A stretch of 37,500 nt of DNA. Source: Smithella sp. SCADC (lineage in GTDB: Bacteria; Desulfobacterota; Syntrophia; Syntrophales; Smithellaceae). The stretch spans positions 1 through 37,500 of the forward strand of contig JQDQ01000232.1 in assembly GCA_000747625.2 (NCBI GenBank). Reading direction: 5' to 3'. Shown one piece after another: positions 10,718 to 15,990 of this stretch. Within the stretch, counting starts at the first letter, position 1, and each line of letters begins with the position of its first letter. The position numbers and the translations under genes were made by a program. The notes under the pieces are model-generated. The model searched no databases, was not told the origin of the DNA, and was given only the letters and a program-made list of their open reading frames with translations.

Positions 10718-10850
10718 CTAGTGCTTAATTTCAATATTAACCGTGTTATTTCGAAGGAACGAAGTGACTAAGAAATCTTTAGAATCATTGAATAAGATTT
10801 CTCCCTTCGGTCGAAATGACATCTCAGTGACTTTTGCAAGTAAGCACTAG
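10718..10850. mobile_element. MITE-like element, copy 1
   Basis: A 133-bp element with perfect 10-bp terminal inverted repeats, CTAGTGCTTA and TAAGCACTAG, and no coding capacity. It contains an internal imperfect palindrome of the GTTATTTCGAAGG / CCTTCGGTCGAAATGAC type. It is identical by eye over its full length to the copy at 11990-12122. The outer CTAG is probably a duplicated 4-bp target, as judged from copy 2. It separates the unknown acidic ORF from a short upstream open piece. Confidence 0.85.
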
Positions 10851-11110
10851 ATTGGAATTTTTTCCTTACTCCTGCAACCCTTTCGTTGTATATGGACAAC
10901 ACTTTTTCGCCCATGTCATTCGGATCTACATTCTTAACTTTCGCCTTGTCCAAACGAAAAAGACACCGAATTTCTACCAGAAATTAGCCGGATTTTTGAT
11001 ACAGTAGATGGTTTCTTATTTTTTACGGTCTTTGCGCCCCATGCTGTTTGTTGTAAAACAATATCATCAAGGCCGACATTTGATGGTTGGCTGCGGGGCG
11101 CGAAAGGCCA
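10851..11110 (-). other. Degenerate stretch with short open pieces
   Basis: Between copy 1 of the MITE-like element and the small hypothetical gene, the minus strand has two protein-like pieces in different frames. One runs LDDIVLQQTAWGAKTVKNKK to SVSFSFGQGES (about 11070-10925). The other runs AKVKNVDPNDMGEKVLSIYN to RKKFQS (about 10945-10851). They read like consecutive parts of one frameshifted coding region that may have continued into the 10044-10717 ORF. Neither part is recognised, and neither has a convincing start signal. Confidence 0.3.
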
Positions 11111-11116
11111 CTATTC

Positions 11117-11320
11117 CTATTCGCACGATAATACTGCATTCCCAGACCTGAACAGGTCCTTGGCGGAAAATCTGCGTTTGGCAGCGTTTTGCCGAAAACC
11201 TTCACAAACGATAGCCATTGCGCGTGTCACATTTTCATTTGTCCCTTTTTCATCGAGCAAAGACAAGGCGGTCAATATCTTGTTCGCCAATATGTCGTAT
11301 TCTTGTTTCGTTGTTTTCAT
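11117..11320 (-). CDS. Small hypothetical protein, coupled to the DUF3883 gene
   Basis: A 67-residue ORF, MKTTKQEYDILANKILTALS and onward, ending in AVLSCE. The ATG at 11320 lies immediately after the stop of the DUF3883 gene (TAG AGC-type junction); an in-frame GTG at 11329 would overlap that gene by eight bases. This arrangement suggests translational coupling and a linked function. The sequence is predicted helical, soluble and without transmembrane segments. No family was recognised. The last residues (KDLFRSGNAVLSCE) may be a frameshifted end. Because the upstream gene is broken by an insertion, expression of this ORF is probably reduced or lost. Confidence 0.4.
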   Translation of the reverse strand: MKTTKQEYDILANKILTALSLLDEKGTNENVTRAMAIVCEGFRQNAAKRRFSAKDLFRSGNAVLSCE

Positions 11321-11321
11321 G

Positions 11322-12203
11322 CTATTCACTCCCTATAGTAGTTGACCAGAATACTTGGACAGAGACGGACTCCCGCCGATCAAAAATAAGCCGCGAGTTA
11401 ACCGGGTTTTGAAAAACTGTGTGGTATGGTTTTTCAGCGAAATTGCGAACGACAAAAAGAAAAAAACGATCCTCTAGCAATTGCGCAATTTTGTGTTCTT
11501 TGCTTGTCATTTGTATTGCGCCAGTTGATGTCGTTATTCCCTTCACCTCAACAGCAAGAAAAGGGCTGTCTTCGCGACTCATCCTGTAGTCAAACCCACA
11601 CCCTAATCCAGTCGTATTTGTCAGACTGTAACTCTGAAACTCTGGAACAGTTATGAAAACTCTTTCAAAATACTTTTCAGCAGCTTGTCCTGTTATCAAT
11701 CGTTTTGCGAAGCTATTGGATTCTGACATATCTGCCTGTTCCTCTATTATCTCAACCTCCCCGGCAATGGATATTTCTGTCTTTATAAGGTCAGCGAAGG
11801 ACTCCATACTTAACATCCCAAATTCGTCCATGAGATTTTTGCAGTATGTACGGATAGGGCGTTTGTGCCATCCCTGTCTTGGATTAGGAAAGTAAGGATC
11901 AAACTCATCACGATAATTCTTGAGAGATGCCGGATTCGCTTTAAGACTAAGAGCAAGAGCGTTGAACGCTTCAGAAAAACCATTGAAACCTAGTGCTTAA
12001 TTTCAATATTAACCGTGTTATTTCGAAGGAACGAAGTGACTAAGAAATCTTTAGAATCATTGAATAAGATTTCTCCCTTCGGTCGAAATGACATCTCAGT
12101 GACTTTTGCAAGTAAGCACTAGCATTCTTAAACCAGTTTCATCAAACTTCGATAGAAACAACCCCGAAAGAATCAGCTTTTCTCTTGTTGTTAGGTTCCT
12201 CAT
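11322..12203 (-). pseudogene. DUF3883-domain protein gene interrupted by a MITE-like element
   Basis: The gene begins at ATG 12203 (MRNLTTREKLILSGLFLSKF, then DETGLRM) and is broken after 27 codons by the element at 11990-12122, which brings in an in-frame TGA. Coding resumes at 11990 with GFNGFSEAFNALALSLKANP, ASLKNYRDEFDPYFPN and GWHKRPIRTYC, and runs to a stop at 11322. Removing 129 bp, and so keeping one CTAG, rejoins both parts in frame as LRM-LGF and gives about 250 residues. The C-terminal half has the DUF3883 pattern: TNTTGLGCGFDYRM, FLAVEVKGITTSTG, MTSKEHKIAQLLEDRFFLFV. This resembles a nuclease-like fold with a VEVKG core. DUF3883 proteins are frequent in restriction and other defence loci; the exact role here is unknown. 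Confidence 0.8.
11990..12122. mobile_element. MITE-like element, copy 2 (inside the DUF3883 gene)
   Basis: Same 133-bp sequence and orientation as 10718-10850, with terminal repeats CTAGTGCTTA and TAAGCACTAG. Flanks differ from copy 1, so this is a second insertion and not a duplication of a longer block. The host gene's frame is restored when 129 bp are removed leaving a single CTAG. This supports a 4-bp CTAG target duplication with the true element being TGCTTA...TAAGCA. No transposase is encoded in it; mobilisation would need an enzyme acting in trans. Confidence 0.9.
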
Positions 12204-13005: not shown

Positions 13006-13470
13006 ATGGTTATAAATTCAAAGCATAAAAATGCCCTGCTTACTTTGCAAAACGCCGGCCTTTCTAAAACTTCACAGCGTATTGCTGTTTTGAATATTTT
13101 ACTCAAAGCAACAAAGCCGCTTAATGTAAGCGCTATTCGCCAGTCTCTGGAAAACAAAGCCAACATTGATAAGGTAACAATTTATCGCATTTTATCTCTT
13201 TTCAGACAACGTGGTATCATCCGGGAAATCGCTTCAGCCGGCGGCGCTAATTATTTTGAAATGGTCACTTTAGAAAAACCATTGCATCCCCATTTCAGTT
13301 GTCGCAATTGCGGAGAATTTACCTGCCTGGAGCCATTATCTTTTACACGGGCATCGGAGCTGATTTTATCTAAAGATGATTACAGCATTGATCACATCGA
13401 AATTAATATATCCGGCCTTTGCAGCGATTGCCGTACGTCAGCAAAGACAAAAATATCATTGTATAAATAG
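13006..13470 (+). CDS. zur: Fur-family zinc uptake regulator (Zur)
   Basis: A 154-residue metal-dependent repressor. The N-terminal winged-helix region includes GLSKTSQRIAVLNILLKA and KVTIYRILSLFRQRGIIRE, the Fur recognition-helix block. The C-terminal metal-binding and dimer part has HPHFSC and two CxxC pairs (C99/C102 and C139/C142), which form the structural zinc site typical of Zur and other Fur proteins. The gene directly precedes znuA (11-base gap), so it probably represses the znuACB operon, and itself, when zinc is sufficient. The ATG at 13006 is used; the ribosome site is weak. A Mn- or Fe-responsive role cannot be excluded from sequence alone, but the context favours zinc. Confidence 0.85.
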   Translation: MVINSKHKNALLTLQNAGLSKTSQRIAVLNILLKATKPLNVSAIRQSLENKANIDKVTIYRILSLFRQRGIIREIASAGGANYFEMVTLEKPLHPHFSCRNCGEFTCLEPLSFTRASELILSKDDYSIDHIEINISGLCSDCRTSAKTKISLYK

Positions 13471-13481
13471 GAATAATTATC

Positions 13482-14429
13482 ATGTCTCTAAGAAAAATAT
13501 CTCTTATCTTTATCCTTTTGTTATCTTTACTTCTGTCCTCCTGCCAACCGGCAAAGGAATCAGACAGGGAAGATAAAAAACTACGGGTAATTGCCACAAT
13601 TTTCCCCATCTACGATTTTGCGCGCAATATCGGCGGAGATAAAATCAAAGTAACCATGCTTCTGCCACCGGGAACAGACGCGCACCATTACGAATTAAAG
13701 CCCGAAGATATAAAAAAGGTCAGCAAAGCTGATATTTTCCTTTTCACCAACTTTGAAATGGAACAGTGGGCATATAAAATCATCAACGCCGCCGAAAAAA
13801 ATACCAATATGCTGGCCGTAGAGACCGGAGCCGGAACTGTCTTGCTGCCGTTCAATGAAGAGGATGGAGTTCATGGAGATCATGGGAATCATATTTCCAA
13901 ATTTGACCCGCATCTCTGGCTGGACCTGGATAACGCACAGAAAATGGTTGATAACATTGCCGCCACATTTATTAAAAAGGATTCTCGCAACAGTGATTAT
14001 TACTTAAGAAATGCTCGTGATTACAAGCTTAAGCTAACCGCCCTGGACCAACGATATCGTACAGAATTAAACGGTTGCAAAACAAAAATAATCTTGCACG
14101 CCGGTCACTGGGCGTTCGCTTATCTGGCTAAAAGGTATAATATAAAATATGTTGCTGCTTATAACATATCAGCGGATGCCGAACCTTCGCCGCAAAAGAC
14201 GATTGCTTTGATCGAACAAGTAAAGAGCCAGAAAGTTCCTTATATTTATTATGAAGACATGATCAGCCCCCGCCTGGCCCAAATGATTGCCGCAGAGACA
14301 GGAGCCGGTTTACTGAAACTCAATAACGGGCATGACTTAAGTAAAGAGGATATTAAAAACGGTGTATCTTTTATTTTATTGATGGAAACAAATCTGACTA
14401 GTTTAAAAAAAGGAATGCGATGTCCATGA
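13482..14429 (+). CDS. znuA: Zinc ABC transporter substrate-binding lipoprotein
   Basis: A 315-residue periplasmic metal-binding protein of the cluster 9 (ZnuA/TroA) family. A hydrophobic signal ends in LLSSC, so the protein is anchored by lipidated C21. Likely metal ligands are H68 or H69 (TDAHHYELKP), H144 (FDPHLWLDLD) and H206 (LHAGHWAF). A short histidine-containing loop (HGDHGNH, residues 131-137) occupies the place of the long His-rich loop of classical ZnuA. It delivers Zn2+, or possibly Mn2+, to the permease. It overlaps the ATPase gene by ten bases, indicating a tightly coupled operon with zur upstream. Confidence 0.9.
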   Translation: MSLRKISLIFILLLSLLLSSCQPAKESDREDKKLRVIATIFPIYDFARNIGGDKIKVTMLLPPGTDAHHYELKPEDIKKVSKADIFLFTNFEMEQWAYKIINAAEKNTNMLAVETGAGTVLLPFNEEDGVHGDHGNHISKFDPHLWLDLDNAQKMVDNIAATFIKKDSRNSDYYLRNARDYKLKLTALDQRYRTELNGCKTKIILHAGHWAFAYLAKRYNIKYVAAYNISADAEPSPQKTIALIEQVKSQKVPYIYYEDMISPRLAQMIAAETGAGLLKLNNGHDLSKEDIKNGVSFILLMETNLTSLKKGMRCP

Positions 14430-15163
14430 ACGTCATCAACGTTGATAATTTGACCTTCTGCTACAACGGCCTGGAAGCTATCAGTAATATTTCCTTTACC
14501 GTAAAAAAAGGCGATTATCTGGGCGTTGCCGGGCCCAACGGATCCGGCAAAAGTACGCTTATTAAAAATATTCTGGGCATCCTGAAGCCGCAAAAGGGAA
14601 ACATTAATATTTTTGGTCAACCTTTAATTTTTTTCCACCAGTGGGATAGAATCGGTTATCTGCCTCAACGAATAAGCTCCTTGAATAATCACTTCCCTGG
14701 TACTGTAGAAGAAATAGTTCAATTGGGCATGAAAAAAAGAAATGCTATAGCTTTAAAGCACACTCTGGAAATGATGGGAATCGCGCATCTTGCGGACCGT
14801 CTGATCGGTGAACTCTCTTATGGCGAACAGCAGCGCACAATTTTAGCGCGAGCTTTAATCAGTCAACCGGATTTACTCATTTTCGATGAACCAACAACAG
14901 CTCTTGATCCCGAAACAAGAGAAATTTTTTATTCATTGACCAGCGAAATGAACCGCACCTATGATACCACTATTATTCTTGTTACTCATGACACAGGCAT
15001 TATCGGGAAGTACGCCCGTAATCTTCTTTATCTTGACAAAAAAGTAATCTTTTACGGAACATTTGAAGATTTTTGTACTTCACCTGATATGGCCGGATTT
15101 TTTGGATCGACCAGTCAGCATATGATCTGTCATCAGCACGACAATGCGGAGAACAACGTTTGA
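14420..15163 (+). CDS. znuC: Zinc ABC transporter ATP-binding protein
   Basis: A 247-residue ABC ATPase that powers metal import at the inner membrane. Walker A is GPNGSGKST (near residue 38), the Q-loop is at GYLPQR, the signature is LSYGEQQRT, Walker B is LLIFDEPTTALD, and the switch His is in ILVTHD. Two ATGs are available at 14420 and 14426. The stop TGA overlaps the next gene's ATG (TGATG), so ZnuC and ZnuB are translationally coupled. No odd residues in the catalytic motifs. Confidence 0.93.
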   Translation: MSMNVINVDNLTFCYNGLEAISNISFTVKKGDYLGVAGPNGSGKSTLIKNILGILKPQKGNINIFGQPLIFFHQWDRIGYLPQRISSLNNHFPGTVEEIVQLGMKKRNAIALKHTLEMMGIAHLADRLIGELSYGEQQRTILARALISQPDLLIFDEPTTALDPETREIFYSLTSEMNRTYDTTIILVTHDTGIIGKYARNLLYLDKKVIFYGTFEDFCTSPDMAGFFGSTSQHMICHQHDNAENNV

Positions 15164-15990
15164 TGGGTTTAGTCGATATACTTAATTATGAATTTGTTCA
15201 ACGCGCCATTTTGGCGGGTATGCTGATCGCTGCCGTTTCTTCCATACTGGGAGTTTTTCTTGTCTTACGTCGTTTCTCTCTGATTGGCGATGGACTTGCT
15301 CATATTACCTTTGGCAGTGTTGCAATCGTAATCCTGATCGGAGTCAGTCCTGCCTATATTACCCTGGCCGCCCTGCCCCTGGTGATGCTTTCATCGCTGG
15401 CTATTCTCAAACTGACTCATTCCAAGCGCATCCACGGAGACGCGGCCATCGGCATCGTCTCTTCACTCGGAATCGCTACAGGTATTATTCTGGCTGGACT
15501 ATCCGGCGGTTACAATCTAGATTTATTCAGTTATCTTTTCGGCAATATTCTAACCGTAACACAAACTGAGCTCTGGCTTTCATTTATTGTTTTTTTAACC
15601 ACAGTAGCCACGGTAGTTATTTTTTATAATGATTTTTTTGCAATTACTTTTGACGAAGAGCTGGCCCAGACAATGGGCATCAAGACAAAAAGAATCAATG
15701 TGCTTCTCTTTCTATTGACGGCAGTCGCGGCAGTTTTAGCCATGAAAGTAGCAGGCATTATGCTCGTCTCAGCTATGCTGATTTTACCGCCTCTAACTGC
15801 TTTGCAGCTATCCATGAGCTTCAAAAAAACCATTATAGCCTCCGCTTGTTTTTCTATTTTATCAGTAATTTGCGGTATTGTTCTCGCTTTTTTGTTGAAT
15901 TTACCGGCGGGAGGAACTATAGTTATTTTTAACATCGGGTTTCTCTTGCTTATTTCCGGAGCTAAAAAAATCTGGCCTTTGCCCCGTTAG
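15163..15990 (+). CDS. znuB: Zinc ABC transporter permease
   Basis: A 275-residue integral membrane protein of the ABC-3 (ZnuB/TroC) family with about eight hydrophobic helices. Typical blocks are FLVLRRFSLIGDGLAHITFG near the N-terminus and AGIMLVSAMLILPPLTA in the second half. It forms the membrane channel for the ZnuA/ZnuC importer. ATG 15163 overlaps the znuC stop. The final codons and stop (CCC CGT TAG) lie inside the left arm of the inverted repeat at 15982-16073, so the extreme C-terminus may have been supplied by that repeat. Confidence 0.92.
   Translation: MGLVDILNYEFVQRAILAGMLIAAVSSILGVFLVLRRFSLIGDGLAHITFGSVAIVILIGVSPAYITLAALPLVMLSSLAILKLTHSKRIHGDAAIGIVSSLGIATGIILAGLSGGYNLDLFSYLFGNILTVTQTELWLSFIVFLTTVATVVIFYNDFFAITFDEELAQTMGIKTKRINVLLFLLTAVAAVLAMKVAGIMLVSAMLILPPLTALQLSMSFKKTIIASACFSILSVICGIVLAFLLNLPAGGTIVIFNIGFLLLISGAKKIWPLPR

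Follow-up and report, generated by a model that had tools for sequence, protein, structure and literature searches.

A 133-bp repeat in Smithella as a MITE with IS630-type ends and a 4-bp target duplication, probably mobilised in trans

The stretch of DNA considered here (37,500 nucleotides of a Smithella sp. SCADC contig, hereafter the window) carries the same 133 bp twice, and the question is what this repeat is and which enzyme could have brought it there. The copies at 10718-10850 and 11990-12122 are 100% identical, have the same orientation and start 1272 bp apart; a repeat search (seed 14) reported no other direct repeat of 25 nt or longer in the window. The sequence diverges at once outside them, and their flanks are unrelated. 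The termini form a perfect 10-bp inverted repeat, CTAGTGCTTA...TAAGCACTAG, and 133 bp leave no room for a transposase gene, as in a MITE. The first-pass annotation, which described two identical same-strand 133-bp elements with perfect 10-bp terminal inverted repeats, is borne out by the repeat search. We believe it very probable that these are copies of a MITE spread in Smithella by an IS630-type transposase acting in trans, with CTAGTGCTTAMTT-type ends, an NTAN target and a 4-bp duplication. The features are as follows (IS-A is the insertion sequence described below).

10718-10850, + strand: MITE copy 1 of family A; the 133 bp include a CTAG at either end
10718-10721, no strand: CTAG target duplication, left side of copy 1
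10718-10733, + strand: left end of copy 1, CTAGTGCTTAATTTCA; 1 of 16 bases differs from the IS-A right end in genome G040, CTAGTGCTTAATTGCA
10744-10821, + strand: inner palindrome core of copy 1
10835-10850, - strand: right end of copy 1, read inward as CTAGTGCTTACTTGCA; 16 of 16 bases equal to the IS-A left end (genome G036; contig C19 of the own genome)
10847-10850, no strand: CTAG target duplication, right side of copy 1
11322-12203, - strand: DUF3883/NOV_C gene split by copy 2; 250 codons once the insert is removed
11990-12122, + strand: MITE copy 2, identical to copy 1
11990-11993, no strand: CTAG target duplication, left side of copy 2
11990-12005, + strand: left end of copy 2
12016-12093, + strand: inner palindrome core of copy 2
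12107-12122, - strand: right end of copy 2
12119-12122, no strand: CTAG target duplication, right side of copy 2

Further copies, which the first-pass annotation proposed to seek by BLASTN, are present in the own genome (G000; 3.19 Mb in 244 contigs, 94.68% complete and 8.22% contaminated): the left end has 46 matches there with at most 3 mismatches, and the reversed control has 0. Because the copies occur genome-wide, a chance origin of the repeat is excluded. The BLAST rows rest on 40 scored of 97 candidates; 41 of the 52 matches listed cover at least 125 of the 133 bases at 85-100% identity (mostly 93-95%), and 6 others repeat copies already among them, aligned to the opposite strand at 68-69% identity. 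Family A copies are dispersed, with mostly unrelated flanks, and several contigs start or stop within a copy, in line with a repeat. In the main group of the family the terminal inverted repeat is perfect over 7 bp and imperfect thereafter. The right end of the window copies is of the type found in C239:6804, unlike that of the main group, and their left palindrome arm reads GTTATTTCGA, against GTCATTTCGA in most fetched family A copies. Two changes common to both window copies, GTTATTTCGA and GACTAAG, occur in no other fetched locus.

Some match to the element is found in 30 of 40 relatives. Among the matches listed, near full-length copies occur in G006 and G012, both of the same genus; the remaining ones are partial and consist chiefly of the inner palindrome. 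The DNA pattern of family A was found in the named genomes Smithella sp. D17 and Smithella sp. UBA2180 and in one Bacteroidales-bin contig (JAJFVH010000134.1, 3.5 kb, one copy), for which mis-binning is likely; the left-half pattern has 0 matches in viral contigs. One family A site is filled in two genomes (G000:C172:36813-36945 and G006:C251:4292-4424) with flanks about 99% identical; other sites differ. The MITE at G000:C120:8147-8279 (locus L033) sits inside another repeat of the own genome, whose other listed copies are 91-96% identical and carry no insert (G000:C170:40699, C101:4615, C98:12728, C60:29594, C73:30417 and C180:3702).

What the element does to its host sequence is visible at copy 2. 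Cutting 129 bp there yields one open frame of 250 codons, from window position 12203 down to 11322. A tblastn search with the rejoined frame yields DUF3883 proteins from 2 plasmid records; in the better one, a single uninterrupted alignment over residues 12-245 runs through the junction at 26.8% identity. This upholds the earlier claim that the removal of 129 bp rejoins a protein frame. Copy 1 lies in a coding stretch of the minus strand, whose halves remain offset by one base when 129 bp are cut here too, so this stretch has either undergone a further change or is not one gene. Since no frame is restored at copy 1, it is copy 2 that supports the duplication within the window. Elsewhere in the window (13006-15990), genes for a Fur-family regulator, a ZnuA-type binding protein, an ABC ATPase and an ABC-3 permease follow one another and probably form a zinc uptake operon.

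The target was studied at 69 distinct sites of fetched elements of family A and of two companion families, B and C (described below), that have flanks and matching end patterns. The left and right 4-mers were compared; sites with fewer than 16 bases of flank, an N in the 4-mer or off-pattern ends were left out, and sites alike in their 10-base flanks entered the count once. The two 4-mers are equal at 57 sites (38/44 for A, 8/11 for B and 11/14 for C) and unequal at 12. When the right 4-mers were shuffled within families, 0 of 20,000 trials reached 57, the maximum being 46. CTAG accounts for 45 of the equal sites, and the 12 others are GTAG, CTAA, CTAC, TTAG, ATAG and one CTGC; with the exception of CTGC, the equal 4-mers have TA at the centre (NTAN at 56/57 sites).

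Empty sites were sought with 20 joined sites in 24 relatives and the own genome, and 26 pairs chosen from the listed rows were aligned. The junction is crossed without the element in 25 of them, 16 bearing the same single 4-mer and 9 another; counted by site, the same 4-mer is found in one pair or more at 9 of 13 aligned sites and in none at 4. The most telling pairs are those of L034 (GTAG) and L028 (CTAA): the empty alleles in G006 are 98% identical and contain the respective 4-mer once. Empty sites with a single CTAG, a check suggested at the outset, were found for other copies of the family; for the window's two sites, no match among those listed (at most 12 candidates scored per genome) spans the junction.

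The candidate driver, IS-A, was found by seeking end-like sequences with no MITE behind them. The copy in G036, a genome of the same order but a different family, is 1136 bp long, has CTAG on both sides and encodes a 355-aa IS630 transposase (E 3.6e-66 and 223.7 bits against NF033545, cut-off 100); it interrupts an 836-codon frame, which is continuous once 1132 bp are taken out. G040, likewise of that order, has a full-length IS-A (91.7%), the protein matching over 1-348 of 355 with no stops, and pieces occur in G027, G067 and the own genome. The own-genome piece is 449 bp long, 91.5% identical and located at a contig end; no complete IS-A is assembled there. A complete IS bounded by CTAGTGCTTA-type ends and flanked by CTAG on either side, which the first-pass annotation recommended looking for, thus exists in relatives. 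At E <=1e-100, 5 of 155 genomes of the order match IS-A, and the match of the own genome is another IS630, IS-B, with an open frame of 358 aa about 50-51% identical to IS-A (E 3.1e-69 against NF033545). Both transposases contain a DDE_3 domain. No second end of IS-B is recognisable within 216 bp (991/1000 shuffles score as well). Besides the own copy, its relatives in 155 genomes of the class at E <=1e-90 are only the IS-A of G036 and G040. For the IS-A transposase, 0 solved structures were found at E 0.001.

Of 20 bases, the ends of IS-A share 16-18 with the window right end and 14-16 with the window left end; among the window's 30 20-mers that start with CTAG (both strands), none outside the MITE ends scores above 12 when compared with the right end. 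Against the window left end, the IS-A left end and the right end of its G040 copy score 16 and 16, and against the window right end 18 and 18. Since each window end scores equally against both IS ends, the assignment of MITE ends to IS ends is ambiguous. For the main family A group, the right end agrees at 17/20 bases with IS-A and at 17/20 with IS-B, and the left end at 13-15 with IS-A; the end comparison thus separates the two ISs weakly for this group, and the pairing of family A with IS-A is not sharp because the right end fits both alike. We take this to mean that the driver probably belongs to the IS-A/IS-B branch of IS630, IS-A being the best candidate for the window subtype.

How the element would have moved can be outlined on this basis. 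We presume that a non-coding MITE with IS630-like terminal inverted repeats is spread by a transposase acting in trans, which would recognise the CTAGTGCTTAMTT-type ends and insert the element at NTAN sites, preferably CTAG, leaving a 4-bp duplication. The enzyme would be the IS-A transposase or a close relative, and the movement would be cut-and-paste as for other IS630 elements. Both window copies may derive from one recent event, and the palindrome would be carried as cargo or core. The earlier claims fit this outline: the MITE assignment agrees with the copies, the ends, the duplication and the empty sites of other copies, and the likely need for an enzyme in trans is supported too.

Inside the element lies a long imperfect palindrome. 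Folding of the entire element gives z -4.78 for RNA and -4.07 for DNA (0/200 shuffles as good), and that of the 78-nt core alone z -3.00 (3/200 shuffles as good). The palindrome had been noticed before, and these z-scores confirm that it is real; the arm letters given for it did not stand, the window copies reading GTTATTTCGA. A functional RNA was also considered and is rejected: the check for a known one gave 0 Rfam matches within the window at gathering scores, and the fold is accounted for by the inverted repeats.

One arm of the palindrome has 86 sites in the own genome (at most 2 mismatches). Sorted by distance to the listed end positions of families A and B, 55 lie within 130 bp of such an end and 31 farther, the latter including at least 2 B elements with diverged ends (L200 and L201). 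Twenty stretches around the outside arms were inspected by eye: 2 are B (the same two), 3 are C and 2 belong to a further family, D, and most others have no such ends. Among 40 relatives, 28 contain the arm as well. The palindrome inside the element is a widespread repeat in its own right; it also occurs in MITEs whose ends are different and at places that lack such ends.

Family B is a second MITE family of the own genome, 131 bp long, with ends CTAGTACCTACTTGCA and the same palindrome type (G000:C61:28-158, C180:8839-8969, C197:29848-29978, C238:32556-32686 and others). Its right end in C66, C90 and C165 equals the 3' end of IS-B over 20/20 bases after the 4-mer; in 7 other loci with B-type right ends one further base differs from IS-B, and in one of these 7 a second does too. 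Copies of A and B sometimes abut with one CTAG in common, and C48 and C66 hold hybrids of an A left and a B right end, which may be assembly chimeras. A B element in G000:C90 (L085) and an A element in G006:C28 (L073) have similar flanks, TTTCAGGAAG CTAC / CTAC.ATCTGGATTCCC, apparently another dispersed repeat.

The third family, C, has ends TAGTGTCRTGTCAA with the palindrome inside and equal 4-mers, e.g., GTAG and ATAG, at several sites. It occurs in the own genome (L192, L194 and L202, with ends CTAGTGTCGTGTCAACG and GTTGACATGACACTAG or close) and in the relatives G039 (L062, L210 and L215) and G006 (L212 and L237). A parent IS was sought for it in 30 fetched loci, which gave no tblastn match to IS-A or IS-B; L092 and L240 were detected when added as a control. 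Family D (L207 and L209; own C93:6335-6660 and C163:17052-17377) has AGGTAATTGCAAAAGT inverted repeats around a similar palindrome. In G037 (L214, L219 and L223) the C-type end precedes a GTCATTGCGA palindrome instead of GTCATTTCGA, and in a 57-bp element of G006 (L097, C16 at about 1327-1383) a palindrome arm connects an A right end with a C end. Considering the C, D, L097, G037 and hybrid loci, the palindrome acts as a core common to several end sets. It is tempting to propose, as a possibility that we hold rather tentatively, that one widespread palindrome is the core of MITE families A-D, swapped between sets of transposon ends by recombination within it, together with an IS630 branch that makes 4-bp duplications. 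If this is true, the abundant GTCATTTCGA/GTCATTGCGA repeats of such bacteria are in part cores of MITEs.

Other explanations concern the duplication and the enzyme. The duplication could, like that of other IS630/Tc1 elements, be TA alone; the outermost C and G would then be part of the element. The 45 of 69 sites with CTAG on both sides are compatible with either model, and TA is the general duplication of the IS630 family according to the available part of PMC2170065. This model is already contradicted: 12 of the 69 sites are flanked by the same non-CTAG 4-mer on both sides, and the GTAG and CTAA empty alleles of G006 (98%) contain the 4-mer once where it predicts a CTAG-type base on one side. 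We consider it very improbable. Because of the equal non-CTAG 4-mers and the single-copy empty alleles, the target duplication of the MITE is 4 bp, mostly CTAG, and not the 2-bp TA given for IS630 in that part of PMC2170065. The 4-bp CTAG duplication proposed by the first-pass annotation is supported by the equal 4-mers, the empty sites and the frame at copy 2. The IS copies cannot discriminate between 2 and 4 bp because all of those with both ends sit at CTAG (IS-A in G036 and G040, 10/10 relatives in Bradyrhizobium and a viral-contig relative, L240). A different DDE transposase with a 4-bp YTAR-type duplication, presumably of the IS5 or IS701 type, could also move the element, its IS630-like ends being convergent or inherited. 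MITEPsy1 would be a parallel, with 100 nt, a CTAG or YTAA target, a 4-nt duplication and a tentative assignment to IS5 (PMC3189936, in the part accessible). We find this improbable, since both ISs found with such ends are IS630 by profile and the Bradyrhizobium relatives with CTAGTAC ends are IS630 by annotation or likeness.

The identity of the window copies, which the first-pass annotation attributed to recent movement or gene conversion, might reflect conversion between older insertions. Copies resembling A/B chimeras (C48 and C66) are known, and C41 and C163 have one flank in common, which means that copies exchange sequence or have been joined in the assembly. The two changes that the window copies share with no other fetched locus and the intact 4-mers on both sides of each copy count against conversion, and a local hop requires one event; we retain both readings and regard conversion as rather unlikely. 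It can finally be asked whether the element is REP-like and moved through its palindrome by a RAYT-type enzyme, the ends being passengers. The palindrome is indeed widespread (arm in 28/40 relatives), and 31 of the 86 arms in the own genome have no listed A or B end within 130 bp. The copied unit, however, stops at CTAG and has IS-type ends with a 4-bp duplication, and HUH enzymes are not known to make such a target duplication; this explanation seems hardly credible to us. The preferred reading is still a MITE that an IS630-type transposase would move in trans.

We regard as new the family itself, its 4-bp duplication and the putative core common to several families. None of the papers listed for MITEs in Smithella mentions the genus, and no repeat paper on the palindrome letters is evident among the titles listed. 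A 4-bp duplication in IS630 MITEs was not reported in the literature found, including the accessible part of PMC11578231, most subscription papers being beyond reach; the parts of PMC8024623 and PMC10969869 available contain nothing on this CTAG/NTAN target. The observation adds to a syntrophic genus a MITE family for which empty sites exist and a likely type of driver can be named. A 4-bp duplication for IS630-type ends bears on target cutting by such a transposase, and the family gives a handle on a palindrome that is present in 28 of 40 related genomes and is the probable core of several MITE families here.

The closest full elements that we compared are the ISRj1-type IS630 of Bradyrhizobium plasmids, with a transposase about 50% identical to that of IS-A. 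Their ends, CTAGTACCCAC..., resemble IS-B and MITE B. All 10 copies read are flanked by CTAG left and right, and one copy directly adjoins the end of a second, the two having a single CTAG in common like abutting A and B elements. The Bradyrhizobium elements differ in being full ISs with a transposase, and not every one of the 10 is annotated as ISRj1. IS870 belongs to IS630. According to the title of a 1993 paper by Fournier et al., it requires a CTAG target. IS630 itself reportedly prefers TA within CTAG (a 1991 title by Tenzen and Ohtsubo).

RUP of Streptococcus pneumoniae, 107 bp long and present in 108 copies, has IS630-Spn1 as its proposed mover (PMC2229807, in the part available). According to the same part of PMC2229807, it is likewise a short non-coding repeat with IS630-family-like ends and a TA-containing target. 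It is set apart by description as having another host and sequence, and the Smithella MITE has a 4-bp duplication and a widespread palindrome. By analogy, we consider RUP a direct precedent, since IS630-driven MITEs are already known. MITEPsy1 of Pseudomonas syringae resembles our element as a 100-nt MITE with a 4-nt duplication and a CTAG or YTAA target; it has other ends and is linked to ISPsy2, whose family is given as "IS5?" (accessible part of PMC3189936). IS630 and ISY100 share the transposase family, and their duplication is the 2-bp TA, as far as the available part of PMC2170065 describes it, against 4 bp in the Smithella MITEs. Judging by the sequence features tested, the element has those of a MITE and ends of the IS630 type, and its 4-bp duplication departs from the IS630 description.
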